From Halorubrum sp. CBA1125 (GTDB lineage: Archaea; Halobacteriota; Halobacteria; Halobacteriales; Haloferacaceae), in contig NZ_WPCE01000002.1 of assembly GCF_009742825.1 (NCBI RefSeq), positions 1 through 64,000 on the forward strand: a DNA stretch of 64,000 nt, read 5' to 3'. The position numbers and the translations under genes are program-made. The notes below the pieces were generated by a model that was not told where the DNA came from, did no database searches, and saw only the letters and a list, made by a program, of their open reading frames with translations. Positions 25,550 to 45,966 of this stretch are shown one piece after another (within the stretch, counting starts at the first letter, position 1; each line of letters opens with the position of its first letter).

Positions 25550-26329
25550 ATGACCAACGGTTGCACCGCGGACAATATTGCTACCGCAAACCCAGAAATA
25601 TGCCCGGCTGACGACGTTCCGACGGCAGCAGACTGGCTTTCAGAACGCGACTACGACTCGGCACCGGTGTTCGAGGATGGCCGCCCAATTGGCTACGTGA
25701 CACGAGACGCCGCAGAGACAGCCTCGCCAGACACGTCACTCGCAGAGATTACAGAACCGCTCACAGTCGATGTCCTCATCGCCAGCGACTCCCCACTCGA
25801 CACAGTTCTCGAAGCACTCTATGACCGCCCGTTCTACTATCTCGCGGACCGAAACCAAGTCACGGGTATACTCACCCGTGCAGACCTCAACACCGAGCCA
25901 GTCTACCAACACCTCTACACCAAACTCTCACAACTTGAACAAGCCTTCCGAAAGACAATCCAGGAACACGTGCCAGATTGGCGCGAAACCACGCCGCTTC
26001 ACCCAGACATATTGGACGCCATCGACGAACGCCTCGCTGATGCGAAAGACGCCGGCGTCGCACTTGACCCGATTCACTACGCCCAATTCTCAACACTCGT
26101 GACTATCATCGGAAACAGCGACGCTGCATCACAAGCACTCGACTTCGATGCCGGGCATCAAGCAAGCAGCCAACTCGACCCAATCACGGATCTCCGGAAC
26201 GATGTCGCCCATTCAACACCGGTCATACAGAACACAGACCGCGGCCTCACAGAATCCGGGCGAACAATAACCCATCTCCTCGACCAGTACCAACTTATTG
26301 AGGAACTACTTGCCACCCACAACGAATGA
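25550..26329 (+). CDS. CBS-pair protein fused to a HEPN-like domain
   Basis: A 259-residue fusion. Residues 10-120 form two CBS motifs (YDSAPVFEDGRPIGYVTRDA and YYLADRNQVTGILTRADL), which in other proteins bind adenine nucleotides. Residues 125-255 are helical (LEQAFRKTIQEHVPDW) and contain LRNDVAHST near residue 215, the R-N-x3-H signature of HEPN ribonucleases. The arrangement suggests a nucleotide-sensing RNA-cleaving or RNA-binding defence protein. This is inferred from motifs only. Confidence 0.7.
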   Translation: MTNGCTADNIATANPEICPADDVPTAADWLSERDYDSAPVFEDGRPIGYVTRDAAETASPDTSLAEITEPLTVDVLIASDSPLDTVLEALYDRPFYYLADRNQVTGILTRADLNTEPVYQHLYTKLSQLEQAFRKTIQEHVPDWRETTPLHPDILDAIDERLADAKDAGVALDPIHYAQFSTLVTIIGNSDAASQALDFDAGHQASSQLDPITDLRNDVAHSTPVIQNTDRGLTESGRTITHLLDQYQLIEELLATHNE

Positions 26330-26469
26330 CACGGCGAGAGTCATACGCGGCCCGCGTCGGAGACTACGTCGACGAGAAACCATTTGTTCGATGGCTTCGC
26401 CTGGCTCTAAGAAGAGGCGGCCCCTGCGTACGACTGTGCGAAATAATTGTTCGACCGGCAAATCTGTGA
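26326..26469 (+). CDS. Very small basic protein, doubtful
   Basis: A 47-codon frame whose ATG overlaps the stop of the CBS-HEPN gene (ATGA). The product is Arg-rich and basic, unlike normal haloarchaeal proteins, and ends EIIVRPANL. The tight coupling is the only support. Confidence 0.25.
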   Translation: MTRRESYAARVGDYVDEKPFVRWLRLALRRGGPCVRLCEIIVRPANL

Positions 26470-26477
26470 GTGAAAGA

Positions 26478-26600
26478 ATGGTCCTGAAAGACATCCCAAC
26501 CGTTGATGAACTGGTCGAAACGACTGGCCAGTCCAAAGAGCAGCTTCTCAAGGATCGTGAGGCTGCGGCGAAGATGTCGGGCGACTCTGCCGACGAGTAG
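26478..26600 (+). CDS. Small acidic protein of 40 residues
   Basis: MVLKDIPTVDELVETTGQ followed by a charged helix and an acidic end. The composition is typical of real haloarchaeal small proteins. It lies eight bases after the preceding tiny frame and could be the last member of the CBS-HEPN operon. No function can be given. Confidence 0.4.
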   Translation: MVLKDIPTVDELVETTGQSKEQLLKDREAAAKMSGDSADE

Positions 26601-27042
26601 CGGTATCCCTGATAGGCGAAGTTGGTTCTACGAACACGATCGGTTACTAGAATCAATGAGAGAATTCGAAAGCATCGGAGAAATGCTCGCGGCAGAGGAT
26701 GGAACTGTTTACATTAGTGGTAATAGTCTAAGTGAGACGGCCTGTGTTAATGTTAAGTATAATTTATTTCTCACTGCGGGGGGACTTCGCAGACGAAATA
26801 GAATATCGAAAGCGGAAGCAGTCCACCGTGGATTATCCCCTTTCCCCAAGGGTATTTAAGTCACGATCCGATAGTTACTATTGTTTCAGAGCTCCCTTTG
26901 GCGATGGAAGCCCGCGGTAACCCTGCGTAGCTAATAGACTACCACTTGTAGGTAGTCGTGAGACTGTCTGGATACGCACACGTTTCAGTACACCCACAGG
27001 GCACCCCTCGCACGTTGCTAACAAGACAACAACCCAACAGCT
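26601..27042. other. Gene-free stretch with possible promoter
   Basis: 442 bases. An open frame at 26656-26859 (67 codons) begins with an acidic segment but turns Arg-rich and is probably decayed. A TATA-like GTATTTAAG near 26850 lies far from the next start at 27043, so a long leader or an unannotated small RNA is possible. Confidence 0.3.
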
Positions 27043-27609
27043 ATGACGCTAACAACAACCATCGAAACAAACGGCACAGAAATCGAAGTCGACCTTGATG
27101 AACTCGATAAATATGGCTACTACTACCTTAATGAGGCTCGAAACCTCATCATTAGAGCGATCGTGTATACTCACGGCACGAAAGACAGCCGCTGGGTAGA
27201 AACATCAGAGATTGGGACAGACTACACGATCAGTGAAGTTGAGGTTGATATTGACGAACTCAAGAGATTCGTCAACGCAGAACTCAACCTCACGCTCACA
27301 GACGAAGAAGCTGAGCACATCGCTACATACTACCAAGAACAAGGCCACGAAGTAGTCAGCCACTGGATGGATGATTTTAGCGGAGACCGAATCCTATCCA
27401 AAGCCGATTACAAGATCATCTCTACAGATGTGGAAGAACCACTTCTCGGCTGGGAGTTTGAATTCGAAGACCTAATCACCCGTATCGCCGCGATAACAGA
27501 ACTTCCTGATCGAGAAATACAGTGGAAACTCTTCAACGCTGCCCGAAGCGCATCACCTGGAGACTTCGAGTACAGCGCTAAAGTCGAACTCACCGGAACA
27601 CCACTCTAA
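27043..27609 (+). CDS. Hypothetical acidic protein of 188 residues
   Basis: It begins MTLTTTIETNGTEIEVDLDE, with an amphipathic middle (EEAEHIATYYQEQGHEVVSH) and a C-terminal helix (LITRIAAITELPDREIQW). It is not recognised. It stands alone, convergent with the HNH gene. Confidence 0.6.
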   Translation: MTLTTTIETNGTEIEVDLDELDKYGYYYLNEARNLIIRAIVYTHGTKDSRWVETSEIGTDYTISEVEVDIDELKRFVNAELNLTLTDEEAEHIATYYQEQGHEVVSHWMDDFSGDRILSKADYKIISTDVEEPLLGWEFEFEDLITRIAAITELPDREIQWKLFNAARSASPGDFEYSAKVELTGTPL

Positions 27610-27730
27610 CCGGAATTCGCACTCCCAGTGGAACCTGTTTCAGCGAACTCAAGATTGGATTCAAATCCCAGGGTGATAGAAACAGCGTTGAAAACAGGAA
27701 TTTGACCGCGTATCGTCCGTTCTTAGACGA

Positions 27731-28822
27731 CTACAGCTCTGCGTTGATCCGCTGTAGCGCCGCAATAGCTGTCTGTAACTGCTCGCGGACCATTACGTTT
27801 CCCTCGTCCGGTGTCGACTTATCCCTATCTTCTTGATCGCCCTGAACGGACTCTCCTAGTCCTGTAGGGTCAGACGGAGTACTGTCTCCGACACCGTGGC
27901 CAACGGAATCCAGCCGTTGTTGCTCATCGGAACTACTCGAATTCACGTCTGCCTCGTCGGCTGTCTCACTCGTGGTGTCACCACCTGGATGCTGCCCACC
28001 GCGACCACCGCGGCGAAACGCATCCAGGGGGAAATCATACGCACACGCTCGCTTCTCTTTGTGGAACGTCGTCCGCCTAGAAATGTCAAGCACGTCCATA
28101 ACCGTCTGCCGGTTACAACCGCGTTCTAAGGCTTGCCGGACCTGCTCGTCTTCAACCCGCTGAATCAACGCTTGCGGATCCGACGGGATGTGACCACGCG
28201 CAGAATGCTCGATTTGGCCTGTCAAGCCCCACGCACCCGTCTGGACATCCTGATCAACGATCTGCCGGTCACGCGTCTCGACCTGGTTGTCAAGCCCCAT
28301 CAGGACTGCAAGGCGTTCACGGACCGTCGTTGGCGACAACTCCGCCGTTAACGAGTCCGCGATCTTACCAGTCTGCGCTGGCCCCTCGTCAGCCAAGTAC
28401 CGTAAGATCTCGATGTCCTGCGGAAGCAGCACACTGAGATCGGCTTCTGTGAGTGTTACTGGAGCGTCTGCACGCGTCGATTGCTGGTGAATCCAACTGT
28501 GGCAGGACCGGCACAGCGTCGTCAGATTCTCCAAGTCGTTTTCAGCGACTCCGACGGGGTCACGCTCGATATGGTGAACGTGTAACGTCGCCAGACCACC
28601 TCGCTCTGGACCTTCTCGCCCGCAGACTTGACACCGATGACCGTCTCGTGCCAACACGTCAGAGCGTGTCTCGGGAGTTACCGATGCGTTCTCGCGGTTC
28701 TGCTCGTAGTCGTGGCTCGCCGCTGAGTCAGACGTACGCGTCTCCGCGCCGTCTGGCTCACTCGTCGTCGTTTGTTCGTTCGATTCGTTGCTGAACTCGT
28801 GGTGTCCGTCAGCTCGTGTCAT
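27731..28822 (-). CDS. HNH endonuclease with HTH segment
   Basis: A 363-residue protein. After an acidic linker of about 55 residues comes a zinc-stabilised HNH nuclease: RDGHRCQVCGREGPE, then LHVHHIERDPVG, then LTTLCRSCHSWIH, giving two C-x2-C pairs and the catalytic His-His. Residues 130-260 contain winged-helix-like segments (LADEGPAQTGKIADSLTAEL, CNRQTVMDVLDISRRTTFHK). The C-terminal 100 residues are low-complexity. It lies immediately downstream of the RAMP operon in the same direction and may be its nuclease partner or an independent restriction-type enzyme. Confidence 0.8.
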   Translation of the reverse strand: MTRADGHHEFSNESNEQTTTSEPDGAETRTSDSAASHDYEQNRENASVTPETRSDVLARDGHRCQVCGREGPERGGLATLHVHHIERDPVGVAENDLENLTTLCRSCHSWIHQQSTRADAPVTLTEADLSVLLPQDIEILRYLADEGPAQTGKIADSLTAELSPTTVRERLAVLMGLDNQVETRDRQIVDQDVQTGAWGLTGQIEHSARGHIPSDPQALIQRVEDEQVRQALERGCNRQTVMDVLDISRRTTFHKEKRACAYDFPLDAFRRGGRGGQHPGGDTTSETADEADVNSSSSDEQQRLDSVGHGVGDSTPSDPTGLGESVQGDQEDRDKSTPDEGNVMVREQLQTAIAALQRINAEL

Positions 28823-28955
28823 CAGTTTCTGTTAGCTTCGGTCGCTTGCTCGATTGGTTCGCGCGGTTCCGGCCAGCATATGGATGATCGCTTCAATCAG
28901 ATCGACCGCTTCCATCGCTCCCCGTCAGACTCGGTGTTGCACAGTTACGCGAGCA

Positions 28956-29648
28956 TCACCTCTGCACCGTCGGTGACAGTGACTTCACCGAGAACTCTGA
29001 TTTCGAGCAATACCACTGAGCAAGCCGTCCGAGATCACGGGTCCGAAGCACATCAGCGACGTTATGAGCCACTAGGTCAGCGAACCGTCCCTCATTGAAC
29101 GCTGTGACTGCTTCACCACTCTCGACGAACGGATCCACGTCGCTGTACCGGCCATCACACAGCACGTCATAGACGCCTGCTAAGTCCCTCTGATCATCAG
29201 ACACGACATCACCGTCACCACCATCACAGGATGTGACGGTCGTATTGAATCGCCGCGTTAAGACCGGCAGAAGATCCGCGTACGGGAGCTCACGGAACGG
29301 CCACTCAATCTCCAACCGTGCCAAGCGCGTCCGAAGGAACGGGAGATCGAACCCGCCCTTCCATCGTTCTCCGTTGAACGCCACCAGCAACACGTCATCA
29401 TCCTGGAGCCGGTCCGCAGTGAACGATCCCACTGCTTCAAACAGCGCTCGCTCCGTCGGATGCGTCGTTACCTGCACGTGTACAGGCACGCGATCACTAA
29501 CACGTCTCTCCACACCGTCGGCATCCCGACTACCAGTCTGGACGAACACGCGGACGCCCATCGGCACCGCGAATCCGATTACAGTAACCTCGTCGTCGAC
29601 ACCGAACCCAGTCGTCTCAATATCGAACGCGACCAGTTCCAGCACCAC
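28956..29648 (-). CDS. DEDD-family 3'-5' exonuclease of the RAMP operon
   Basis: A 230-residue DnaQ/RNase T-like exonuclease. The first acidic pair is in VAFDIETTGFG (residues 7-17), the second region is LVAFNGERWKGGFDLPFL near residue 95, and the last is AHNVADVLRTRDL near residue 196, with His and Asp in the expected spacing. It would remove nucleotides from DNA or RNA 3' ends. Its start overlaps the stop of the Cas5-like gene by one base, so it is the last gene of that operon. The literature description of the haloarchaeal HRAMP system includes varied nucleases in this position. Confidence 0.8.
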   Translation of the reverse strand: MVLELVAFDIETTGFGVDDEVTVIGFAVPMGVRVFVQTGSRDADGVERRVSDRVPVHVQVTTHPTERALFEAVGSFTADRLQDDDVLLVAFNGERWKGGFDLPFLRTRLARLEIEWPFRELPYADLLPVLTRRFNTTVTSCDGGDGDVVSDDQRDLAGVYDVLCDGRYSDVDPFVESGEAVTAFNEGRFADLVAHNVADVLRTRDLGRLAQWYCSKSEFSVKSLSPTVQR

Positions 29649-30676
29649 TACGCTTCACCCCCTGAGACATCTGCCTTCTCAACGTCGTGTATCAGCTCGG
29701 CACGATCCGGGATGCGATCATCGCTCGCCGGGCGGACTCGAAGCTCACCGAATCCGAACCGCGAATGCGTTCCAACCCGGGATACCCCGTTCTTTGCCGT
29801 CTTGACCGGGTCCGATCCGTCGTACCCGACAATCTGTCCGTGGTCAATCGTCGCTAGGTCATACACGTCTCCATCGTCGACGAGCCGTTCCGTCCGTCGC
29901 CGTAGCCCGGATCCTCTCGCTTCACTCACCTCACCCTCATTGTTACGGTCACAGTCAGCCGCACTCGACGGCGCAGCTGGGCGGGACACATCCCACCACC
30001 ACGGCACGGACTGATCATCAGCACCGGGGTAGTCGGTCGCTATGACGAACGGTGACACCAACTCAATGGAGTGCTCATCAGCTGCTGCGATCCGATCGTA
30101 GTCCAACGCCTCAAGATCGATCAGTTGTGAATCGACGATCGACAACCGACCGAACCCGTAGTTCCGCGCGCCGCCGACCTGCAGGCCATCCAGCGTCTCA
30201 TCCGCGACCGGAAGCACCGACTTCGAGTGCGAGCCAGTCGTAGACAGGTAACACTGGACGAACCACCGAACCGATCGTTTCGAAGTCTGCATCTCTGGCG
30301 GGCGACCAAACCACGCGACCGAATCGAACGCAAGCCGCCCACCGTGCGACTGGACAGGATGGGCGTTATGCGCGTCTCGTGGCCACGACGACTTTAGCCA
30401 ACGCTGCGCCGAATCCCGCAGCAGGAACAGATCATCATACGCCTCGACCGGCGGTAGCGACAATCCAACCTTCCCTAACGATTCCTGAGAGTACCACGAT
30501 GGCGGCGTCCCGTACGCCTTCGGCAGGAACACACCGTTGCTGACACACAGCCCTCGCCGCATCGACTCATCGACACGCTGTGCTAGTGCCTGATAGAGCG
30601 CGTTCCCTGTCACGAAGTACGGGTGCCCCAGATACCCCGTCTCCAGCTCGAACAGTACCTGCTGAATTCGTGTCAC
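29648..30676 (-). CDS. Cas5-like RAMP protein of an HRAMP-type system
   Basis: A 342-residue protein with two RAMP (ferredoxin-like) halves. It starts MTRIQQVLFELETGYLGHPY, and has the Gly-rich loops GGARNYGFGRL near residue 168 and VGTHSRFGFGELRV near residue 305. Such loops bind the crRNA handle in Cas5, Csm4 and Csf3 proteins. The start is a GTG at 30676, preceded by GGGGGTGA at a ribosome-binding distance, unlike the leaderless genes around it. I read it as a diverged Cas5-group subunit. There is no Cas1, Cas2, Cas3 or Cas10 nearby. Confidence 0.75.
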   Translation of the reverse strand: MTRIQQVLFELETGYLGHPYFVTGNALYQALAQRVDESMRRGLCVSNGVFLPKAYGTPPSWYSQESLGKVGLSLPPVEAYDDLFLLRDSAQRWLKSSWPRDAHNAHPVQSHGGRLAFDSVAWFGRPPEMQTSKRSVRWFVQCYLSTTGSHSKSVLPVADETLDGLQVGGARNYGFGRLSIVDSQLIDLEALDYDRIAAADEHSIELVSPFVIATDYPGADDQSVPWWWDVSRPAAPSSAADCDRNNEGEVSEARGSGLRRRTERLVDDGDVYDLATIDHGQIVGYDGSDPVKTAKNGVSRVGTHSRFGFGELRVRPASDDRIPDRAELIHDVEKADVSGGEA

Positions 30677-31031
30677 GCTGACTCACCCCCTGCGTTTCCA
30701 CTCCAGATCCCGAGTAATCTCCGAGACTGAAGCGCCACGGACTGCGGTCCAGACACACCCTGTTTCCAGTGCCACGAGCCGTACAGCGCCGCTGCCGGCG
30801 CAATACAGGGGCCGGTAGGGGCAGATTGTAGCCACCAGTCCCGCAGCGGCATCGCACCTCGCCGCAGTGATGCCGCCCCTCTATCTCGACGACCACACAC
30901 CCCGTTTCCACTGTCTTCACCACGACGACCACACACCCTGTTTCCAGTGCCCCGGGCAGTAGATCCATCTATACCGTCGTATTCCGGCATCGACGCTGCC
31001 CTGTAACGAGGAGATTCGAAGCGCCCCATCA
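30677..31031 (-). repeat. Repeat-bearing, probably non-coding stretch inside the RAMP operon
   Basis: On the operon strand a unit around GGCACTGGAAACAGGGTGTG occurs four times. Copies at 30931-30951 and 30753-30773 are identical over 21 bases, the copy at 30895-30915 has three mismatches, and a more diverged copy lies at about 30685-30705. Spacings are about 68, 142 and 36. Between them an 8-bp stem GCGGCATC/GATGCCGC can form. An open frame spans the stretch, but the two identical copies fall in different reading frames, the product is Arg-rich, and codon third positions are not GC-rich. It may be a guide-like RNA or a decayed CRISPR. Confidence 0.55.
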
Positions 31032-31899
31032 TCACGACCACCCCCACCCCACATCAGCAGCACCAGCATCACGCACACCACGCCACGCGACGAACTCCTC
31101 GATGTACTGCAACGCCGTTGACCAGGATCGGAGCCGTCGAAGCTGCGCATCCAACACCATCCTCGATCGTGCCCCGTCCGTCTCGAACGGCTGGGCGGTC
31201 AACCGCGACCATACATCCGCAAAACGACCGCGCCGGTCCCGGCCCGAGCCTCGCCGCCGGCCGATCGCCTGGATCACTCGTCACAACCAGCGTCACCAGC
31301 GGCGACCACAACACGGTACGATGCGGCGACACCACACCACTCTCTAACGCCGCTTCGACACCGCCATCAGTGGCCGTCGCCTCACCAGACCCCACCGCCA
31401 GGAACAATTCGTCGAAGCTACGTCCTGCACGGTACTCGGACAACAGCGCCGCCGTCAACAGCACGTGGTACTTCAGCGACGTGTACGGATAGTACGCCGA
31501 CTCGTTGAACGCCGCAGCAACGTCGCTCGTCAGCCACGCCGCGTGGAGCCGAACGGCTTCACTAGGCGTCACCAACGATCGGAACCCGCCATCCGCTGCC
31601 GCCTCAATCCGGCCAGATTCAGTCGCGGACTCGCCCGTCAGCAACGACAACCGGTACGGTGACGAGTGGTTCGCCACCGTCTGTTCCGGCTCACCTGACG
31701 GTCGGCTCAGTAACGCCGCATCACCATCCGCACCTCGCGGGACAGCCTCATTCACCGGCACACCGTGATACTCGTCAGCACCCGAACCGTGCCGCCGATT
31801 CCGGAGTTTGTGGACATCGTGGCGATACACCGCCACCATCGGATCAGCAACCGTCTTACCGACTGCATCAGCATCCACAAAGTCACGAGCATCACTCAT
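31032..31899 (-). CDS. Unrecognised RAMP-operon protein, frameshifted
   Basis: About 288 residues if one extra base is removed. The first part (31899 to about 31225) is acidic and protein-like (SPYRLSLLTGES, YYPYTSLKYHVLLTAALLSE, HRTVLWSPLVTLVV). Then the frame degrades, while the next frame reads FADVWSRLTAQPFETDGARS through TALQYIEEFVAWRGVR to a stop at 31032. A run of four T (plus-strand A at 31221-31224) is where one extra base would restore the frame. Uncorrected, the frame ends at 31069. It matches no family I know and fits the uncharacterised conserved protein of HRAMP systems. Confidence 0.65.
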
Positions 31900-32894
31900 C
31901 AGAGATCACCTCGCTCTCCCTCGACGACACTGTCCTGACGATCGATCGCCGCACTCAGCTCGCCGTCAGCATCGCTCACACGCGCCTGCAACGCTCGCGT
32001 GAACTCTTCACGGTACGTCTTCCGCCACTCATCGTCTTTCTCCTGCATCGCCTTCGTGGCGTTCTGCGCCCGATTGTACACGCGACGGATCTCTCGCTTG
32101 GTGTACAGCGGATTCACCACACCCACATCAGCAATCCCCGCACCGAAATTCCGCGCACCACCGAGCTGGAACTCAAACGTATCACTCTTCGAATTGAGCA
32201 ACGAAACCGCTTCTAGCAACAACCCGACGAACTCGGGCTTCAGTGTCCGTAGCGTCAACAACCACGTTCCCTCGACGTTCCCGACCACGTCCCGAGTCGC
32301 GTGCCGCAACGGCTGCCCACCGTCCTCATCGTTCCGCGACCGAACCTGCGTGTGCAGTTGCCGGTAATGCGCCTCGGCCTCACCACGGAGAACATCGACC
32401 TGGGAGCGAACCGGCGAGAACCGAATCGGCCGACGCAACAACTCGCCCGGTTTGTCACCGAATCCACCGAACAACTCGTAGACAACACAGCCAGCGTCGG
32501 TATCGCCTGCCTCAACGCAGGCTCCTTTCTCGTGGTACCCCTGGCTCAAGTCACGATCATACACGTCCGCACGCATATAATCCGCATTCGGCTCACCCGG
32601 ATGGCACGCCGACATCCCCGCAATCTGCAACACGCGTTCACACCCGTGCCGTAACCAGCCCGACAACGTGAACGGCGAGATCTGCCCGCGAATCTGATTC
32701 ATCGCATCATCCGCCTCGTACCGATCCGCAGACGCATGATGCCGATCAGTCACGACGCCGTCACCCGGCGCAAGCAAATCCACCCCAAGGTCAAGGTACA
32801 GATCCGGGAACGTCGACTCATCGACAGGTGGAAGCTCGAACTCACCGTCAAGGTGCCACACCGAGAATGACGGGGACTCCGATCCCCCCGTCAT
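31899..32894 (-). CDS. Cas7-like RAMP protein of an HRAMP-type system
   Basis: A 331-residue RAMP-fold protein. It starts with a beta strand (FSVWHLDGEFELP), has an RNA-binding-type segment SGWLRHGCERVLQIAG near residue 80, a central FSPVRSQVDVLRGEAEAHYR, and the Gly-rich loop LGGARNFGAGIADV near residue 245. It ends in a helical charged tail. This arrangement is that of the Cas7/Csf2/Csc2 backbone subunits that polymerise along a guide RNA. Its ATG overlaps the upstream stop by four bases, and its stop touches the next start. Confidence 0.75.
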   Translation of the reverse strand: MTGGSESPSFSVWHLDGEFELPPVDESTFPDLYLDLGVDLLAPGDGVVTDRHHASADRYEADDAMNQIRGQISPFTLSGWLRHGCERVLQIAGMSACHPGEPNADYMRADVYDRDLSQGYHEKGACVEAGDTDAGCVVYELFGGFGDKPGELLRRPIRFSPVRSQVDVLRGEAEAHYRQLHTQVRSRNDEDGGQPLRHATRDVVGNVEGTWLLTLRTLKPEFVGLLLEAVSLLNSKSDTFEFQLGGARNFGAGIADVGVVNPLYTKREIRRVYNRAQNATKAMQEKDDEWRKTYREEFTRALQARVSDADGELSAAIDRQDSVVEGERGDL

Positions 32895-33400
32895 TGCGAA
32901 CCACCACTGTCACACCACGACGACGGCTGCTCACGGCCAGATGACTCCGTCACCACACCCGAATGAGTTACATCAACACGGGCATCCTCACCATCGGCAC
33001 CCGAGTCCGGATAAGCATCATCCAGCGTGTATGCCTCTAGCGTGTTCCGCGGACTGAAGACAACCAATTCAGGTTCCAGTAAAACCAGCCACGCCGACTG
33101 CGTCGCCGCGTCTGACACCGTACCGACCCGCCCTTGGACAACCAGCTCCCGGAGCGATCGATCCCACGAGCGATTATACTCATCTCCATGCCCCCGACAA
33201 AACACATCCTCAATCTTAAATTTCGGATCAGACTTCGATCGAAAAGCGGACACAGTAATGCGTCCGCCTTCCCAAATTCGAGAGTCACAGACTTGACAGA
33301 TAACGGCCCCTTCCGCCAAATCTGACAGTTTCAGTTTGTTTATGTCTTCAATAAGCTCGCTGTCGATACTTTCTTGATTTGGTGGTGTTGATTTCGTCAT
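32891..33400 (-). CDS. Zinc-finger protein, first gene of the RAMP operon
   Basis: A 169-residue protein with one zinc site formed by ICQVCDSRIW and FCRGHGDEY, about 40 residues apart, followed by a beta segment AWLVLLEPELVVFSPR and a polar tail. In size and zinc site it recalls Csf1, the small Cas8-like subunit of type IV systems, but the similarity is weak. The start chosen is the ATG at 33400; a longer frame upstream overlaps the promoter. Confidence 0.6.
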   Translation of the reverse strand: MTKSTPPNQESIDSELIEDINKLKLSDLAEGAVICQVCDSRIWEGGRITVSAFRSKSDPKFKIEDVFCRGHGDEYNRSWDRSLRELVVQGRVGTVSDAATQSAWLVLLEPELVVFSPRNTLEAYTLDDAYPDSGADGEDARVDVTHSGVVTESSGREQPSSWCDSGGSQ

Positions 33401-33487
33401 GGGTTCGAGATTGGTTATTCTGAACCCAGCCTGGGTGCTACCACACCCGGGCGTTTCCTGATTAACGCCCCATGGCTGAGCTTCCAC

Positions 33488-33560
33488 CCATTAGTCATAC
33501 CGCTAATGGCATAAACCTTTGGACGTTCGACTAATGGATGGCGTCCCAGCACTCATTAGT
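33488..33560. promoter_or_regulatory. Four CCATTAG-type sites in the RAMP operon promoter
   Basis: CCATTAG at 33488-33494 and CTAATGG at 33503-33509 form a 7-bp inverted repeat. Another CTAATGG lies at 33531-33537 and a partial CATTAGT at 33554-33560. They sit between the minus-strand RAMP operon and the plus-strand winged-helix gene, overlapping a TATA-like CATAAACC. They look like operators for that winged-helix protein. Confidence 0.55.
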
Positions 33561-33583
33561 GAACCGGGGTCAATATCGGTGAT

Positions 33584-33820
33584 ATGGGCGACCGGAAGCG
33601 TGACGAGAACAGTGGTCGGTTTAGCGAGGAGTATCCTCGGGAAGATTTTCTCCGGGTCGTTGAAGAACTCGGTGCAGCCGGGACGACCGACGTTGCTGAA
33701 CACGTGGGGTGCGACCGAAGAACTGCTTATCTGAAGCTCCAAAGTCTCAGAGAGGAAGGCGATGTTGAGAGTCGAAAGGTCGGAAACGCTCTGCTGTGGG
33801 AATTAGTGGACGAATCTTAG
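33584..33820 (+). CDS. Small winged-helix regulator between the RAMP and BREX clusters
   Basis: A 78-residue winged helix (EDFLRVVEELGAAGTTDVAE, RRTAYLKLQSLREEGD, then the wing VGNALLWELV). It is divergent from the RAMP operon, faces the BREX cluster end by end, and has repeated CCATTAG sites at its own promoter, so it probably represses itself and the RAMP operon. Confidence 0.7.
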   Translation: MGDRKRDENSGRFSEEYPREDFLRVVEELGAAGTTDVAEHVGCDRRTAYLKLQSLREEGDVESRKVGNALLWELVDES

Positions 33821-33827
33821 GGAGTAA

Positions 33828-35856
33828 TCACTCTAGTTCAATCGCCTTACTAGCCGCATCAAGGGGATTTGTGTAGAACACGAGTTGGAGTTGATCGAGG
33901 AGTTCGTCGGGGATCTTCGGCAAGTCTTCTTTGTTCTTCGCCGGAAGGAGCACCGTTTTGGCTCCAGAATCCGCAGACAGCTGGAGTTTATCGATCAACG
34001 AACTCACGGAGACTAACTCGCCCATCAAACTCATCGATCCCAGTACGACGGTCTGTGGCCGAACTGGTCGATCAAGAATTCCCGAAACAATACCGACGAG
34101 GAGCCCGACACTCGTTTCACCACCCTCATTCGCATCAGAAGGATTCAGAACCTGGACGTTGATGTCGTATTCATCTAGGGTATCTTCACGACTGAGTTCC
34201 CGCATATTCGCCTGTAGATAGTCACAGGCGGTTTCAAACGACTCTTTCATCCGCTTTCCAGGCGTTCCTGAAATGTTCGTCTTGCCTGATCCGGGGAGTG
34301 TCTGTGTCTCGATTCGGAATGGGGCGTGGCGTCCCTCGCTCTCGCCAATGGTGTAGACCGTTCCTGCCTGCTGTGTTCCGGGGGGGAATGAGTGCCTCGT
34401 CTGCTTCCTCGGGCACTGAGACATAGATCTCCTCTTTGGTATCCAAGTCGAGGTAGGAGAATTCGACGGCACGATATTCCATACCGCCAATCCGCTTCAA
34501 TTGCTCCTTGACTCGACGACGACCTTCCATAGCGAATTCGAGATATTCTCGGAGCTCTTCTTTCGTGTAATCACCATGTGGGTGAAGTAGCTTGAGTAGA
34601 CCAGAGACTGTCTTTCGTACTGCCTTTTCATCCCGTTGGTTCAGATGGTCACCAAACGCGAACTCCTCGTTAATCGCGTCACCGTACGACTCCTTGCGAA
34701 GTTCGCGGACGAATTCAGCGAAGTAGTCGACGATGAATCCAAACTGGTCGCCAAAGAACTCGGACCGCATCTTCGGGACTTCCCACCCTGGAAGGTAGTA
34801 GTGGAATCGGTCGATGAGCGCGAGATCCTGCATATCTTCGGGGAACGGTTCAAAGAGGTGTGAACTCTTGAGAACGCCTTCAACGTCAAGGTCGATATTT
34901 CCGACATAGACCATCGAGGCTTGGGCGGTGAGCTCTTCAGTCCCACGAGAGAAGCTTCCGGACTCCATGTAGTCTTTGAGCATCTGGACGGCTTCCGAAT
35001 CGCTGAACTGGAGTCCCCCGACCTCGTCGAACGCGACGACATCCCAGCGACCGACGAGTCCGATCCGCCCTGTATTCAGGTTCAAGAAGAGTTTCGCAAC
35101 GGTGGTTTTACCGCCAGAGATGAGGATTGAATGGGGACTGATTTCGCGGTAGAGATAGCTCTTTCCCGTCCCACGTGGTCCCAATTCGACGTAGTTGTAA
35201 TTCGACTCGACGAGTGGGATACACCGAGCTAAGAAGAGGAATTTCTCGCGGTCGCTAAACGAAGAGGGGTCGTAGCCGACGGTCTGAAGGAGAAGATCCA
35301 TCCATTCGTCGCGCGTGAAATCGTTACGTCGATCTTTCAGTTGGTCAAGATCAAGGTTCGATACCTGTATGGGTTTGAACGAGTCGATGCCGAAGAGGCT
35401 CTTTGGACTGTTCGCATTATCGGGGAGATATTCCAAGTCGATGATAGCCCAGACGCCACCACCCAGGAGCTTTGGATGCTTGCTGACGAGATGTTCGTTG
35501 ATCTCGACATCGCTCAAACCGAGGTTGACGAACGAACCGATGTAGGCATCCTGTTGCTCATCGAGCCTGACGGTGACCTTGTCGATGACGCGATAACGTC
35601 CTCGTTCTCGAACTTCGCTCTTGACGAATTCGGCTTCGTCGGGACGAACGTAGTGCTTTGACAGAATCTCTTTGACCTTTTCGAGGCCTTCTTCCAGAGA
35701 TTCCTCGTCATCAGTCGCACAGTACTGTCCGATCAGATATTCGAGAACGTAGGTGGGGACGTTTACCCCGGATTTGATGTCCTGAACAAGGTCTTTCCGG
35801 ACGACGCGCCCGGAGAAGACATCCAGGGCTTTCCGATCTACGTCCTCAGTCGTCAT
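33828..35856 (-). CDS. brxL: BrxL, Lon-like AAA+ protein of BREX, frameshifted
   Basis: About 675 residues if one extra base is removed, the usual BrxL length. The N-terminal part (35856 to about 34390) has Walker A LGPRGTGKSYLYR near residue 226 and Walker B VVAFDEVGGLQF near 270. The frame breaks at seven G on the plus strand (34380-34386), after EEADEALIPP. The other frame continues GTQQAGTVYTIGESEG and holds the Lon-like domain (GGETSVGLLVGIVSG, SSLIDKLQLSADSGAKTVLL) to 33828. Uncorrected, the AAA part would end with an unrelated tail at 34234 without the Lon-like domain. BrxL is needed for phage exclusion in type I BREX. Confidence 0.82.
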
Positions 35857-35977
35857 TATATAACGGCAATGTTGCCGGGGGCATATTGGTGTCGGTCATC
35901 AGGAGTGAGAACTCAAGATAGTGAATGAATCCTGCTCGGATTCGACTACGACAGCCCGTTGTTGTATCCGAGATCAC

Positions 35978-38404
35978 TCACACGTCAAATCCCATATCGT
36001 CATCTCCGAAGAGTAAATCGAGGCTCACAGTCTGTCTCGTGATCGTCTCTCTGGTGTCAGTATCGACGACTTCGAATTGGACCGTATCTTCTCCCGAGAT
36101 GGCTCCCTGTTTGAGTCGGACACGAGCACTGTTGTCGCCCGGTGAGATCTCCATTGTAACGGCATCCGCAACTGATTCACCATCGATGGTCGCACGAACC
36201 TCTAATGTTGGTGCGGGGTCGAAGGCGACTTGCCCACTCTTGGCCTCAATCTCTACGGTGAGTATGGAGTTCGTAATCGGATCGGGGATCGAGACATCGT
36301 AGCTGATCGACGCGCTCTCTTCGATTTCGCCCGTGGTCACAGTGAGACACGGGACTAGGAGTTCTTGAAGCGAAATCCCACCGTGGAAGTAGCGCATATT
36401 CCCACCTCGTGACTTGAAGCAAGCGACACTACGGGGGAATAGCAACTTGATCTCGGGGCCATCAATGCCGAGTTTCGACAGTGCCTCGTGATCGATCTCG
36501 ACGAACTCATCAGTATCGACGAGTGGTGTTTCGCGGTCGGCAGCAGCGAACCGGCGTTTGACGACCGGAGCAAGGTCAGGAGCCTCAACTTTGTGATCGT
36601 CATTCAGCCGGTCCGTATACAGGAACCCGTGATCGCTGGTGATCACGAAGCGAGTATAGCCGGCCTGTTTGAGACGCTGGACAGTCCGTTCGACATCGTC
36701 GACGTGAGACGCAACTTGGCTGAATGCAGCATCGTCGTCAAGACTCTCGCCGAGTTTGTCAATCGTGCCGGAGTAGACGACACGCGGAACGGGGTCGGAC
36801 TCGGTCAGCTCTTCCAGTGAAATGTCGCCCACTTCGTCCATATCGACGACATCGAAGCCCGCAGCACTGAGTCGTTTGACGCGCTCAGCCTTTCCAGCCA
36901 TTTCCTCACCGCCGCTGGTGACCACGAGTTCGTCGTCGTCGAGCGAGAGTCCGAGCTCGCCCGGAAGGTGTGCGGCCATCCCAACCTCGGTGATTGACGG
37001 TAGCGCGGCGCTCACCGCGCTCAGGTCCTGCTCGAAATCGGTTCGTCGGCCCAGATTCTCGCGGATGGCTTCAGCAAGTTCGTAGCGGAGCCCGTCACAG
37101 ATAATGATCGCCGTTCCGTCTTCGACCTCAGCGAATTCCTCGTAGAACGAGGTCTGTGGGGTTCCGAGTGTCGGATCGTCGCTCAAAATCTCTGCCAGAG
37201 GCCGGTTGACGCCCTGAAGGAAGGCCATGTAGTGGTTAGTGACCTGGCGTTTCACCGTGGCTTCCTTTGGGTACGGGAATGTGGCCTTCTGGGTCGCGTT
37301 GATGTAACGCCGATAGGCTGCGTCAACCTGCCACCAGCCATCGTCACTCGTGTACTGTCCTGCGAGTTCCGTCGAACCCATCGCTTTCGCGTCGTCGACA
37401 TCGACGGTACCGATCTGACGAAGCGTCTCAACCGCCAAAGCAGGCACCGACCAATCGACGAGGTCCTCGTTGCTCCAGAAGCTGTCCCGGCGTTTCGTGA
37501 CTGTCCGATTGAGTTCCGCCGCGATCTCCGGAAGATCAGCATACGTTCCCTCAGCAAGTCGATCCATCACGAGTCGGATCAGGCCAGTGTCAATACCTTT
37601 GAACGCTGTAGCGTTCCATCGGGTTTGATCGGATTCGATCACGGCCTCTGTGAGGTCGTAGTCGGCTTCGATCTCTCGTGAATAGCGGGTAAAATCGGCA
37701 GGAGTGTACTGTTGCCAGTCGTCGCAAAACTCCGCCGCAGCTTGAGCATCGTCTGCAGCGAGGTTGTCGTACTGTGCCGTCGGCGCACGACTCGTCACCT
37801 CTCCGAAGAGGAGTTGGGTCGCCAGTTCCTTCGGGTCCAGTCCGGCATCGATGCCGTACTCCTCGCGGAGCTGTGCATCCCACGCATCAGCCATCGCGTT
37901 ATCTTCGATGTCTTCGCGGTATTCCTCAGGGTCAGTGAGATAGTCACGGACCCACTCGTCGATTGCTGGACCCACAGTCTCGAAGAGCACGCAAAAGAAC
38001 GCCAGCCGTTGGTACTCGCGGTTCTGTCCCCAATCCTCGTAAGCGTCCGGGATTTCTTCGTCATGCTCGACGAGAAACTGCGTCACCGGTGTGTCGTCAA
38101 TGTCCTGGCCGACGCGATACTGTCGGCCGAGCGCGTGAACATCGCGGAACCACTCAGCGTCGTTCCGGGACTCAGGGATGTAGAACAGCCAGTTCTTCTC
38201 GTAATTCGGATCCTCATTTCGGAGACGTAACTTCAGTTCGAAGTAGCTGTCGTCGTAGCGTGCAAGTATGACATCGTCGAGTTCAGCTTCGACCTCGTCG
38301 AGAACCCCCTTGTACTTCTCCTGGGCGTCGTACCACACCCAGACTGGGTGTCGGTCGAATTTTTGGCGAAGTTCCGTGACAATGCTGTCTGCGAGATCAC
38401 CCAT
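35978..38404 (-). CDS. pglZ: PglZ, alkaline-phosphatase-superfamily protein of BREX
   Basis: An 808-residue protein that starts DSIVTELRQKFDRHPVWVWY, as in BREX PglZ. The metal-binding alkaline-phosphatase core is seen in AIIICDGLRYELAEAIREN near residue 430 (nucleophile region), ITEVGMAAHLPGE and FVITSDHGFLYTD near residue 590. PglZ is a core BREX subunit required for modification and defence. Six bases separate it from pglX upstream, and 121 bases from brxL downstream. No truncation is seen. Confidence 0.93.
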   Translation of the reverse strand: MGDLADSIVTELRQKFDRHPVWVWYDAQEKYKGVLDEVEAELDDVILARYDDSYFELKLRLRNEDPNYEKNWLFYIPESRNDAEWFRDVHALGRQYRVGQDIDDTPVTQFLVEHDEEIPDAYEDWGQNREYQRLAFFCVLFETVGPAIDEWVRDYLTDPEEYREDIEDNAMADAWDAQLREEYGIDAGLDPKELATQLLFGEVTSRAPTAQYDNLAADDAQAAAEFCDDWQQYTPADFTRYSREIEADYDLTEAVIESDQTRWNATAFKGIDTGLIRLVMDRLAEGTYADLPEIAAELNRTVTKRRDSFWSNEDLVDWSVPALAVETLRQIGTVDVDDAKAMGSTELAGQYTSDDGWWQVDAAYRRYINATQKATFPYPKEATVKRQVTNHYMAFLQGVNRPLAEILSDDPTLGTPQTSFYEEFAEVEDGTAIIICDGLRYELAEAIRENLGRRTDFEQDLSAVSAALPSITEVGMAAHLPGELGLSLDDDELVVTSGGEEMAGKAERVKRLSAAGFDVVDMDEVGDISLEELTESDPVPRVVYSGTIDKLGESLDDDAAFSQVASHVDDVERTVQRLKQAGYTRFVITSDHGFLYTDRLNDDHKVEAPDLAPVVKRRFAAADRETPLVDTDEFVEIDHEALSKLGIDGPEIKLLFPRSVACFKSRGGNMRYFHGGISLQELLVPCLTVTTGEIEESASISYDVSIPDPITNSILTVEIEAKSGQVAFDPAPTLEVRATIDGESVADAVTMEISPGDNSARVRLKQGAISGEDTVQFEVVDTDTRETITRQTVSLDLLFGDDDMGFDV

Positions 38405-38410
38405 ATCGAA

Positions 38411-41400
38411 TTACCTCGAATAGCTCGATTTCAGCTTTGGAAGTCCGGTTTCTAGGACTTCGTATTGGTCCCACTCTTTGATGTTCTCCCAGATTCCTTT
38501 CTCCACATCAACTGTGACACCGTCGTCAATCATTTCGTCGATGGTATCACGGAATTCCTTAATGTCGTCAAGGTCGTTTTGGACTTCTTCTTTCCTCTTC
38601 AGGAGCTCTTTATCCGGATTATCCCCGCTAGTTTGAGCATTGAGGGTTTCAAGCTCATTTTGGAGTTCATCGATCCGTGGATCGAGATACTGACCCCGGA
38701 GCTTCGGAAGTGTGTTCGCGTCTATGTCGTGGTAGTAGATGAAGCAACTAAATCCACCGTTAGGGCTTTCGAGTTGCCAATAGATTGGGCTTCGCTCACC
38801 TCGTGGTTTGTACTCATCAACATGATGGTACCGGAAGAAGTTCTCTCGAAGCCAATTAACCGGCTGATCTCCCAAGGCGGATTCGAGTGTGCGTTCGGCC
38901 TGCGCTGAATCCTGAAATAGTTCGTTGAGAGCCTTCGAGAACAGGTTTGTGACTGAAGTAGTCGAGTGGTCAAAAGCAAGTATCTCGTCATCAAGAGTGG
39001 GGATCTCGGTACCAGTTTTCCATCGGTCAAACAGCGAGCCCACAATTAGTGAAACCACTCGACCTGCGGTCCTCGTCTGCTCATCGTCAGTATAGAGGTC
39101 GTAGTCGTATCGAAGTTGGGCTACGGTTAACGGGGAGATCCCAGTTTTTTCGGCTGCTTCGCGGAGCGGGACTCCGTCTAATGACCGGAGAGTTTCCACT
39201 GCTGAATCAAGCCGCTCGTCATCGAAGTCAGATACATCTAAATACTCGTTCAAGAATTCTGGATACTCAACGTGAACATTATCATCCACAGGATAGTTAG
39301 AGGTGTTCTTTGGGAGATTTGCGTACATCTGTTCTTGCGTCTCAGAGGAGATCTCATATTCATCGAAGAGGAGAGTGTCTGAAATCCCATGGACAGTAAG
39401 GATGCGAGCTTGAGTCGTCTCCTCTGCATACAAGAGGTCTATTGTACTTGATTCAAGCAATTCTGTAATTGCTGATCCTTCGAAGTCTGCACTAATCTCT
39501 GTTAGCCGGGAGAGTGTTTTACTCTCTTGAATTCCCGTTTTAACTAACTCAAAAAGCTCCTCTTGATATTCGTAATCCGTTTTTAGTGGGAAACGTTTCG
39601 CATCTCCCACTTCAAAATTCAGCCCGGGATTTAATCCATTAGCGATGAACCGGTGTAAGGTCGAATTGAGATTTGCGAGTAGTATCTCATTCGAGACCTC
39701 TTTCGGGAAGATGGCGTGAGCTTTGTGTGAAAAGATCGTATTTTTGGTTTTTATTCGAGATACAAAGTAGTTCCCGAACGACCGGAAAGTCGTTCCCTGC
39801 TTGAAGTAGTAGTCCATATTTTGAGGTCTACTACCATCGTATTCCGCGATTGGATCACCGGCTTGTTTCCAGTCAACGAAATCCTCAGGAACATCATAAT
39901 ATTCAGAATCAGTACCACTTTTTTGGAAGCGTTTGAATCGGTTCTCTAACTCAGACTGAGGGAGCTCCCAAGACTTTCGGACGAACCGGTCATCGTCACC
40001 AGTCGCTAAACCTTGTTTGACCTCAGCAATATCGTCGATGCTCGGATACTTCGAGAACAAGCTGAGAGTCTCATCACCGAACCAATAGAGGAAGGGTCTT
40101 CTGCCAATATCGTCAATCCGAGTTTGAGAGAAGGAATATACATCTTTATGAGGTTCCCCAGATCGAAGCGTTCGAGCAATCTGGTCAAGACCAGATATTT
40201 TCTTCTTATGACTGTCATATCGATCTTGTTCATGTGTCATACGGTAGAATCTTGAGTATTGGCCACTGCTAGGGGGATTTCCACGGAGTACAAATGGGAT
40301 GGTAAATGGCCGGTCCTTCATCGAGAAGGAGTGGCCAGATAAGTGAGCAGCCTCAATGAAATAACTCTCATTTAGAAGCTTCTTTCGCAGTCCTCGGAAG
40401 TAATAGAGGAACATAAAATTCTCTGGAGTAACCATACTAACGTGGCCATCCTCTGACGAAAAGGAGAGACAGCGTTCGATGAAAGCGCCATAGACATCAT
40501 ATTTCCCCACGTAATGGTCTCTGATGTAGTCCTTGAGCGTCTCGCCCATCTTTTTACTCTGTAGATATGGCGGATTGCTGACGACCGTATCGTATTCTCC
40601 CATCAGAACATCGAGGAGTTCCACTGTTTTTCCAACCTCGGCAGCGAACATCTCCTCAATTGGGTCATTATGTTCGAGCGCTTCACTAGCGAGGTTCTGT
40701 ACGCTCTGCATTAGCCGGGACTTGATTTCGTCCCAAGACTCTTCCTCACCGCCTGCAACGAATGTCGATTGAGAGGTCAGCCCACCACCGCTCGTGAATT
40801 GTGCTTGGCCGGTTGCCTCGAACTCTTCTCGGTATTCGTCGAGAACCTCATCAATGCGGTCTTCGACCTGAACCAAACTGCCTAACTCACGGATGTCCCC
40901 GAAACTATTCCAGATCTGCTCTAAGATTTCCCTCTCCAATTCCGACCCCGAGCGTTCAAGTATCTCTTCTTTCCTTTCACCGTTAATCAGCACGGCGTCT
41001 GCTGAAACGATGTTCAACTGTGGGATTTCGACATCCGGCGATTGGTCTTTCGCCTTTAGATAGAGGGATAGGGCAGCGATTTGCGCAGCTCCCGAATCAA
41101 TGTCGACACCATAGAGATTGTTCCGGAGAATCTCACGGGGGATGTACTTCTCCGCGATTTCACTCTCTTCTAGATACATCTGGTAGAGAACGTCGAAAGC
41201 ATAGAACAGCATATGACCACTTCCGCAAGCCGGGTCAAGTACGGTGATCTCTTTGACCGATTTCGTCTCGCGGTCAGTCAGCGAGTCTTCGAGCGGAGCA
41301 AGATAGAAGCACTTGTCCTCATCGTTAATACTGGTTCTCTCACCTTGCATTTCGAGCCACAGCCGTCCAAGCGAATTGTCGACCATCCACTCGACGATAT

Positions 41401-42133
41401 AGCGCGGTGTGAACAGCTGGGTCTTCGTGGCGATGTCTGTTCCTGCAATCTTGTAGTTCTCTTCATCGACACGCTCGTCGATCTCCTCGCGTTCTTCTTC
41501 TCCGAAGTACTGGTAGACCCAACCTAAAGCCTCGTCACTCTCCCAAGCCTCGTTTTCGATGGCATCCAGTTTGTCGAGAACTTCTTCACGCACCTGTGGA
41601 TCGAGGTCGATGACGGTGTGTTCGGATTCCTCGAAAATCATCCGAATCTCTGCGCCGATCTCTTGGTACGCAAGTTCGAGTGCGGTACCGAAGCCATCGT
41701 CAGGTGCGTTGGTTAGCTCGCCTGCGATTTCGGCGACCGTGTGGTGTATGTACGACCGGTTGCCGTACTCCGGTCGCTCGGTGATGGTTTCCTCAATGAT
41801 ACCGCGAATCTCGATGGTTTTCAGCGCAACAAATCGATTGAGGTAGGTCTTCGTCGCTTCCCGGACGTAGTTGGTGATTGACCGCTCTAGGTCGCCTTCG
41901 GTGGATTCGAGTTCACGTTCGATAGCTGCATTCAGTGTTCGCCGAGTTTCGATCTCTTCAACGGAGAGGTGTGTCAGGTTCTCCAACGGGAGTCTCTTGT
42001 CTTCGTAGATGCCGTATTTTTCGAGCTGACGGCGAAGTTCGTCTTCAAGTGCGTGGCGTGTACTGAGGATCGTGCTTCGGATGGTCGAGCGTTGATCCGA
42101 CGAGAGACCGGGTTGACCGTGGGTTGTGGACAT
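38411..42133 (-). CDS. pglX: PglX, BREX adenine-specific DNA methyltransferase
   Basis: A 1240-residue N6-adenine methyltransferase, the usual PglX length. The SAM-binding motif I is TVLDPACGSGHMLFYAFDVL near residue 298, and the catalytic motif IV is VVSNPPYLQSKKMGETLKDY near residue 520. The N-terminal helical region (SIRSTI-type, LTHLSVEEIETRRTLNAAIE) and a long C-terminal target-recognition and coiled-coil part complete the family plan. It marks host DNA at a non-palindromic site. It begins 187 bases after brxC, with its own promoter and a structured leader. Confidence 0.93.
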   Translation of the reverse strand: MSTTHGQPGLSSDQRSTIRSTILSTRHALEDELRRQLEKYGIYEDKRLPLENLTHLSVEEIETRRTLNAAIERELESTEGDLERSITNYVREATKTYLNRFVALKTIEIRGIIEETITERPEYGNRSYIHHTVAEIAGELTNAPDDGFGTALELAYQEIGAEIRMIFEESEHTVIDLDPQVREEVLDKLDAIENEAWESDEALGWVYQYFGEEEREEIDERVDEENYKIAGTDIATKTQLFTPRYIVEWMVDNSLGRLWLEMQGERTSINDEDKCFYLAPLEDSLTDRETKSVKEITVLDPACGSGHMLFYAFDVLYQMYLEESEIAEKYIPREILRNNLYGVDIDSGAAQIAALSLYLKAKDQSPDVEIPQLNIVSADAVLINGERKEEILERSGSELEREILEQIWNSFGDIRELGSLVQVEDRIDEVLDEYREEFEATGQAQFTSGGGLTSQSTFVAGGEEESWDEIKSRLMQSVQNLASEALEHNDPIEEMFAAEVGKTVELLDVLMGEYDTVVSNPPYLQSKKMGETLKDYIRDHYVGKYDVYGAFIERCLSFSSEDGHVSMVTPENFMFLYYFRGLRKKLLNESYFIEAAHLSGHSFSMKDRPFTIPFVLRGNPPSSGQYSRFYRMTHEQDRYDSHKKKISGLDQIARTLRSGEPHKDVYSFSQTRIDDIGRRPFLYWFGDETLSLFSKYPSIDDIAEVKQGLATGDDDRFVRKSWELPQSELENRFKRFQKSGTDSEYYDVPEDFVDWKQAGDPIAEYDGSRPQNMDYYFKQGTTFRSFGNYFVSRIKTKNTIFSHKAHAIFPKEVSNEILLANLNSTLHRFIANGLNPGLNFEVGDAKRFPLKTDYEYQEELFELVKTGIQESKTLSRLTEISADFEGSAITELLESSTIDLLYAEETTQARILTVHGISDTLLFDEYEISSETQEQMYANLPKNTSNYPVDDNVHVEYPEFLNEYLDVSDFDDERLDSAVETLRSLDGVPLREAAEKTGISPLTVAQLRYDYDLYTDDEQTRTAGRVVSLIVGSLFDRWKTGTEIPTLDDEILAFDHSTTSVTNLFSKALNELFQDSAQAERTLESALGDQPVNWLRENFFRYHHVDEYKPRGERSPIYWQLESPNGGFSCFIYYHDIDANTLPKLRGQYLDPRIDELQNELETLNAQTSGDNPDKELLKRKEEVQNDLDDIKEFRDTIDEMIDDGVTVDVEKGIWENIKEWDQYEVLETGLPKLKSSYSR

Positions 42134-42147
42134 GGATATTAGAGGAT

Positions 42148-42220
42148 GGCACGCCGCTGTGAGACGGGTGGGGTGACGGCGTGCCGTGTCGTGATTCCCA
42201 CCCGTGGTGACATACCACGG
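42148..42220 (-). promoter_or_regulatory. Double-hairpin 5' leader of pglX
   Basis: Within the pglX leader two perfect inverted repeats occur. GGCACGCCG (42148-42156) pairs with CGGCGTGCC (42177-42185), and CCGTGGT (42202-42208) pairs with ACCACGG (42214-42220) across a 5-base loop. The first ends 15 bases before the ATG. They could control translation or transcription of pglX. Confidence 0.55.
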
Positions 42221-42235
42221 AAAAGCAGTCGGCGT

Positions 42236-42250
42236 CTCTTATAATTGTGG
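42236..42250 (-). promoter_or_regulatory. TATA box of pglX
   Basis: The minus strand reads CCACAATTATAAGAG, a good haloarchaeal TATA element. Initiation about 25 bases downstream would give a leader of roughly 80-90 bases that contains both hairpins. Confidence 0.5.
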
Positions 42251-42320
42251 GAGTGCCGATTTCAGAGGTTCCATCTGGGATCCAAATTCAGTCTGAAAAT
42301 CTCGAATACTGGTGTATGAG

Positions 42321-45300: not shown

Positions 45301-45966
45301 CTCGTCTGTCGACTCTACCAGTGCGGTCTCCATATCCGACCGCACGAACATCGCATCCTTCCGGGCCTCTGTCCAGTCTTTCCCGGTGTTTGACTCGATG
45401 GTAGCGACGAAGTCGTCGTACACGCCTCGTGATTCGAGTTCCTGTTCCATCTGGGCGACCCAGGGCATAGAAGCGTACCCGCGGGACGTGTTGAATTCAC
45501 GGTGAATGATCTCGGTGATGGATTCACTTCCAGATGCATCGGCCTTCGCGCCGATCTGGAACATCAACACCTCGGAATCGAATTTGTTCGTGACCGACGA
45601 GACGGCTCCGTCGAGCATCTCGTTGCCCTCGATCCGATCACGGAACATCTCCGCTGCATACGTATCCCCGAACTCCCGGTTTTCCAGGACGTGACCGAGG
45701 ATCTTCATAAAGTGGCTTTTCCCGGATCCGAAGAACCCGGAAACCCACATCCCAACGTCCTCTGTTTGGGCGTGTTCCGTGTCGATGACGGCCTCTAGGG
45801 CGTCCGAGAAGTGCCGTTCGAGTTGCGGTGTGAGGATGTACTCTTCGAGTTCTTTCTTGACGACGCTCGGGTCATCGTTATCGACTTTGACGACCCGGTC
45901 GATCTTCCGATTGATCGGCCGGTAGAAGATCTCGTTGATTTGGTAGGTAGAAGTAGTGTCACTCAT
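42321..45966 (-). CDS. brxC: BrxC, BREX P-loop ATPase, frameshifted
   Basis: About 1214 residues if one extra base is removed, the normal BrxC length. The N-terminal ATPase part shows MWVSGFFGSGKSHFMKILG (P-loop near residue 75) and YFVFIDEISQFIGDDGQ (Walker B). At SIREATPK the frame breaks in a run of six (plus-strand T at 44518-44523). The next frame continues NADPEIASRVLKSLYLLQQL to 42321 with the coiled-coil C-terminal half. Uncorrected, the cell would make a 534-residue N-terminal fragment with an Arg-rich tail, and separately an ORF for the C-terminal half. BrxC is essential in studied BREX systems. Confidence 0.85.

Follow-up and report, generated by a model that had tools for sequence, protein, structure and literature searches.

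HRAMP (haloarchaeal RAMP) is a CRISPR-like system derived from type III systems and has been described as array-less (PMC8730458, PMC12669027). In the literature that we searched, which comprised open-licence papers only, no report of an RNA in HRAMP was found. Cis-acting autoregulatory elements within mRNAs are known from operons such as that of the archaeal ribosomal protein L1, and a GGAAAC-like core recalls the 5' handles of type III crRNAs. Compared with HRAMP as it has been described, the clade analysed here presents a conserved RNA stretch with repeats and hairpins between the Cas10-like and the Cas5-like genes. The stretch was followed in Halorubrum sp. CBA1125, in a window of 64,000 nucleotides (the whole stretch of DNA that was analysed, contig NZ_WPCE01000002.1), to which all coordinates refer.

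Results

The genes of the HRAMP operon are all on the minus strand of the window. The first one (32891-33487) codes for a cysteine-bearing, possibly zinc-binding protein, here Zn198, recognized by its conserved operon position, and the second (31899-32894) for a Cas7-like RAMP protein (Cas7L), assigned by its conserved operon position and by a PADLOC match to Csm3 (6e-4). The following gene, UpA (31032-31899), appears to be a reduced Cas10/Csm1-like gene according to a fold search with its predicted model, in which the best matches were nearly all to Csm1/Cas10 chains and were weak (lowest E-value 0.047). In the assembly the UpA frame is split by a 1-nt insertion near 31224 (TTTT versus TTT), and it is intact in relatives such as L104; the edge of the gap at 31031 was counted from the frame-restored end of UpA. 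Beyond the gap we found the Cas5-like RAMP protein (Cas5L, 29648-30676), identified by PADLOC (Cmr3, 6e-6) and by a predicted fold that matches structures of a type III-D subunit, Cas6, Csm4 and Cmr3 (E from 2e-6 to 8e-4), then an RNase H-superfamily exonuclease-like protein (28956-29648; Pfam PF13482, 2.4e-6) and an HNH endonuclease (27731-28822; Pfam PF01844, 6.6e-10). With Cas5- and Cas7-like RAMP proteins and a nuclease such as HNH, the operon fits HRAMP. A BREX-like operon (BrxL, PglZ, an Eco57I-like methylase, BrxB and BrxA) adjoins it at 33828-47330, in a defence island, and an EVE-AAA protein is encoded at 58508-61318 of the window.

The search with the Cas5L protein gave matches in 114 of 391 Halobacteria genomes. 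The gene order of the complete loci is Zn198, Cas7-like, UpA, Cas5L, exonuclease-like and a nuclease (HNH or another). Of the 41 loci mapped at first, the majority have 43-617 nt between UpA and Cas5L, and in the rest this junction is closed; elsewhere in the operon most junctions leave no gap (-4 or -1 nt), the exception being the one before the final nuclease. The intervals between the Cas7-like gene and UpA were also considered as non-coding gaps and were discarded, as on inspection they seem to be coding sequence that extends UpA at its N-terminus and contains short peptide repeats. An N-terminal extension of UpA with a repeated short peptide (approximately DELxPVxxxxRxxQ) appears to be present in L041, L043-L046, L061-L063, L065, L067 and L071.

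The gap between UpA and Cas5L (30677-31031, minus strand) was assigned as an RNA element embedded in HRAMP because homologous gaps with these motifs occupy this junction in relatives, and because of the nucleotide-level constraint presented below. The original prediction described a unit that recurs four times on the operon strand. This observation is confirmed: there are three exact minus-strand copies of TGGAAAC-x-GGGTGTGT (30931-30946, 30895-30910 and 30753-30768) and a looser fourth one. Taken as 18-mers with the consensus CAsTGGAAACrGGGTGTG, the three exact copies, all on the minus strand, correspond to CACTGGAAACAGGGTGTG at 30932-30949 (copy 1), CAGTGGAAACGGGGTGTG at 30896-30913 (copy 2) and CACTGGAAACAGGGTGTG at 30754-30771 (copy 3). 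Copies 1 and 3 have in common 21 identical bases (GGCACTGGAAACAGGGTGTGT) and, since they are 178 nt apart, they stand in different reading frames, as had been claimed; copy 2 shares the frame of copy 1. The spacings between copies are 36, 142 and 68 nt, so that the two which had been likened to CRISPR repeat-spacer units are present, and the shorter one had been left out. No further TGGAAAC-x-GGGTGTGT was found in the window, nor, even with one mismatch, in the 3.23 Mb of the host genome (an 84%-complete assembly of 379 contigs), and no tandem repeats were reported in 26000-38000. At three mismatches the motif count in the whole window was 4, against a shuffle mean of 1.23, and 3 of 100 shuffles reached that value; as this excess is only marginal, the significance of the repeats comes from the relatives.

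The looser fourth copy, which we call element E0 (CTGGAGTGGAAACGCAGGGGGTG, 30684-30706, minus strand), lies directly before the start of Cas5L and overlaps its Shine-Dalgarno-like region. The E0 pattern, CTssAsTsGAA..GGGGTG, is found just before Cas5L in most of the gap loci, not in all, and E0-like sequence also occurs in several loci with gaps of only 43-57 nt. The upstream motif copies resemble E0.

The motif is restricted to HRAMP, to a single junction and to a single strand. The search in 391 haloarchaeal genomes returned 41 exact CACTGGAAAYRGGGTGTG sites in 18 genomes, all of them placed in HRAMP loci by their positions and by the loci retrieved, and none for the reversed pattern used as control. 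All but one of these sites are upstream of a Cas5-like gene; the remaining one is in a deletion remnant (G254, a truncated HRAMP without Cas5L). When up to four mismatches were allowed in 41 oriented loci, 49 copies were counted in 11.8 kb of gap, whereas the surrounding 518 kb contained 5 in sense and 2 in antisense orientation. The count in 79 named loci with up to three mismatches, which are largely the same organisms and not an independent sample, was 49 copies in 11.6 kb of gap, with 4 sense and 1 antisense outside, in 802 kb. The four outside sense matches of this second count all sit in L115, whose contig begins within the gap or close to it, so that no UpA match is present. Among 61 distinct copies most of the 18 positions are near-invariant, and the CACTGGAAAC half is about as conserved as the G-rich half. 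The motif was also sought in viruses, where 2.9 million contigs gave a single match; the stretch examined carried no HRAMP homologue, and the match was judged to be due to chance.

The gap had been described as non-coding, and this part of the prediction is not supported. A stop-free frame, f1 (30673-31035, minus strand), crosses it completely, with a GTGA overlap with the UpA stop at one end and a GTGA overlap with the Cas5L start at the other. Defining f1 by its end in an ATGA or GTGA that overlaps the Cas5L start, we evaluated 33 distinct gaps longer than 130 nt: there were 8 stops in 4,625 codons, with none in 31 of the gaps, compared with 180 and 78 stops in the other two sense frames. 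In most loci a GTGA or ATGA start of f1 overlaps the stop of UpA. The lack of stops, together with these overlaps with both flanking genes, indicates that the gap is very probably translated through, without constraint on the amino acids.

Selection on the gap acts at the nucleotide level, as had been proposed. In the family of the window, Ka/Ks of f1 was 0.53-1.24, compared with 0.12-0.25 for UpA, 0.03-0.21 for Cas5L and about 0.02-0.17 for Cas7L; in other clades it was mostly 0.45-1.2, versus 0.09-0.24 for Cas5L. Furthermore, the differences in f1 are spread flat over the codon positions (for example 15, 17 and 15 in the window's family), and neither measure gave a sign of amino-acid-level constraint. 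The motif occurs in the three frames relative to f1 (37, 22 and 6 copies) and thus encodes unrelated peptides, while 13 of 15 distinct motif spacings are multiples of 3; related loci contribute to these frame and spacing counts, which are therefore not fully independent. In several pairs of loci, the closest pairs of the window's family not among them, the gap has diverged less than the synonymous sites of Cas5L.

The gap in relatives shows RNA-like covariation, in the form of hairpins, present in several clades, whose stems covary around an invariant GUGGUG loop. In the unselected test, stems of at least 6 Watson-Crick pairs were found at 24 of 89 distinct GTGGTG gap sites, compared with 2.6 for permuted flanks (none of 600 permutations was as high), and the coding GTGGTG sites of the same operons presented no excess (1 of 182, with 2.4 expected). 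Stems of 7 pairs were formed at 17 of 74 gap sites, at none of 473 sense sites outside gaps and at none of 122 antisense sites. An alignment of 51 sites, selected with [CT]GTGGTGG from twelve loci (L041 and those where hairpins had already been observed), gave 84.7% of paired cells versus 56.5% when shuffled, and a covariation of 0.786 versus 0.274 (0 of 500), with slid controls reaching at most 0.23; these figures are somewhat inflated because hairpin loci were preselected and some of the sites are orthologous.

In the family to which the window belongs, the GUGGUG hairpins are weak. The RNAalifold z-scores of the whole gap against column shuffles were -2.1 for this family, and -3.7, -3.0 and -3.6 for three other clades; the Halorubrum type C clade gave -0.5. 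The covariation terms of the whole-gap alignments showed no clear excess over the column shuffles. For the TGGAAAC motif itself, considered as a hairpin with paired flanks, permutation gave no covariation; its CAC/GTG positions are near-invariant. In Rfam there was no match at the gathering threshold in the window, L117, L122 or L131, and none at E <= 1 in 29000-32000. In type C gaps (Halorubrum and Halopenitus; L050-L052, L055, L057-L060) there is a different repeated unit, GATATGGTCGTGCGGTGAG..., plus GTGTTACAATC, in a mostly stop-free frame, and a sequence resembling TGTTACAATC is found again in the insert of L038.

The lack of a gap in other HRAMP loci had been set out as an observation that would count against the prediction. 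Indeed, about half of the HRAMP loci compared have no gap; in many others a motif-bearing gap with related repeats was found between the same two genes. Among the strains that carry the element are Haloarcula japonica DSM 6131, in which it closely resembles that of the window, and Halovenus rubra. A tree of Cas5L (93 rows) separates a clade in which 35 of 38 members are gap-less from a second one, where the junction is long in 35 members, short in 10 and closed in 10. As the gap is absent in many loci that keep the genes, the element is dispensable for HRAMP as such. Two deletion derivatives, G165 and G254 (L200 and L202), have lost the Cas7-, Cas10- and Cas5-like genes entirely or for the most part and keep a Zn198-type protein, the element and the operon-closing nuclease-like gene, which has no Pfam match. 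In G165 a reading frame still crosses the element and ends in an ATGA overlap with the downstream nuclease-like gene, and in G254 the frame through the element looks broken. L155 (Haloferax marinum), in the otherwise gap-less clade, has an interval of 755 nt before Cas5L that may be a frameshifted upstream gene.

Discussion

Tentatively, and with somewhat less than even confidence, we propose that the stretch is a cis-acting regulatory RNA of one HRAMP clade, which would act on Cas5L and the nucleases. The element would ride inside the operon mRNA, with its copies of the motif of about 18 nt (CACUGGAAACGGGGUGUG), the GUGGUG hairpins and E0 over the ribosome-binding site. A putative binding protein, most simply an HRAMP RNA-binding subunit, would recognize the motif and E0 of the transcript; once bound, it could limit the passage or reinitiation of ribosomes and in this way set the output of Cas5L and the downstream nucleases. 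The frame f1 would be kept open because translation of Cas5L would depend on ribosomes that arrive through f1. What we infer is that the element functions as RNA, that ribosomes translate through it, and that a bound protein controls Cas5L and the nucleases in cis. As in the autoregulatory mRNA elements, there is binding-site-like sequence over a ribosome-binding site inside the operon, and translational coupling; unlike them, this element has multiple copies within a long stop-free frame, and its regulator is putative.

We prefer cis-regulation to a guide RNA because the element is missing in many loci that keep the genes, because the spacers are irregular and drifting, and because no protospacers were found in phages or plasmids; furthermore, translational control would require just what is seen here, a frame kept open and a motif copy at the ribosome-binding site. 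The persistence of the element in G165, with a frame through it, also speaks for this explanation. Points against it are the weakness of the GUGGUG hairpins in the window's family, the lack of covariation in the TGGAAAC motif and the irregular copy number, which fits a guide RNA as well. Under this other explanation, which we regard as less likely and as the main rival, the mRNA would be cut at the TGGAAAC repeats and short RNAs with GGAAAC as 5' handle would load the Cas5/Cas7-like complex, as guide or scaffold. The operon does encode RAMP-fold and Cas10-like subunits, the repeats are on the transcribed strand and only in HRAMP, and some arrays are nearly regular, the most regular being that of Halorubrum californiense (L120), with five motif copies, spacings of 45, 48, 45 and 48 nt and spacers of 25-28 nt. 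However, the genes are kept where the element is missing, in the almost entirely gap-less HRAMP clade and in several members of the other one, the spacers range from 4 to 122 nt in the compared loci and change mostly by drift and by gain or loss of units, and the stop-free frame is left unexplained. No convincing spacer match, and thus no protospacer candidate, was found in phages or plasmids, where haloviruses are thinly sampled. The stronger version, in which this HRAMP clade is RNA-guided by a self-contained array inside its own open reading frame, with GGAAAC-handled RNAs that load a Cas5/Cas7/Cas10-like complex, seems to us a little more doubtful still. As regards the decayed remains of a CRISPR array inherited from the type III ancestor, what speaks for it is that a type III-derived operon is accompanied by direct repeats with a GGAAAC core, which on the transcribed strand resemble an array; but the motif is strictly conserved across divergent clades, the gap is constrained, its frame is kept open and its hairpins covary, which makes a relic extremely improbable. 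A CRISPR array has a constant repeat and a near-constant spacer length, and here the start-to-start spacings go from 24 to 291 nt and the whole gap can be aligned among relatives, as expected from drift rather than turnover. In addition, there is no cas1 at the HRAMP locus; a single Cas1 was found in the genome, on contig C104.

The remaining explanations take the stretch as coding sequence, as ribosome-loading sequence or as a DNA site. If f1 encoded a real, fast-evolving small protein of about 120-240 aa, with the nucleotide repeats as a by-product of recent duplications, the overlaps on both sides, the nearly general lack of stops and the spacings divisible by 3 would be accounted for; the high Ka/Ks, the flat codon positions and the unrelated peptides that the motif yields in its three frames argue against it, as do the covarying hairpins and the low divergence of the gap in some clades, and the product would be poor in acidic residues, unlike haloarchaeal proteins. 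We therefore hold it improbable. The overlap of E0 with the Cas5L ribosome-binding site, the resemblance of the motif copies to E0 and the complementarity of GGUG to the anti-Shine-Dalgarno core, noted by inspection of the sequence, could also mean that GGGGUG and GUGGUG serve as Shine-Dalgarno-like sites within the mRNA, at which ribosomes are loaded or paused ahead of Cas5L with no dedicated protein. This would leave the conserved CACTGGAAAC half unexplained, and the motif is at no other gene, so we give such a ribosome-related element an even smaller chance. Finally, GGAAAC followed by a G-rich string is reminiscent of the origin recognition box (ORB) of Orc1/Cdc6, of which TAACAGCGGAAACAGTGGGGTGGGGGGGT is a haloarchaeal example (PMC3528665). 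The reading as a DNA element of this type is close to refuted, because the motif sits only at HRAMP: none of the exact genomic sites is at an origin. Moreover, the copies have a single orientation, with no inverted copies around an AT-rich stretch, the gap is GC-rich, and the three matches to the Cdc6 C-terminal domain are on contigs 363, 71 and 223, with none on contig 146, that of the window.

Taken as a whole, the original prediction of a guide RNA or CRISPR relic is partly supported. Its RNA role is well supported, because relatives carry covarying hairpins; the CRISPR relic or array is not supported, given spacers that are irregular and drift and that gave no protospacers in phages or plasmids.

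The conserved RNA element inside the HRAMP operon offers a first concrete handle on a system that current CRISPR classifications give as both array-less and of unknown mechanism, and the element names an RNA to seek alongside the HRAMP proteins. The arrangement is also unusual in itself: over hundreds of bases that are probably crossed by ribosomes, the RNA sequence, the hairpins and the absence of stops have apparently been selected, and the peptide has not.
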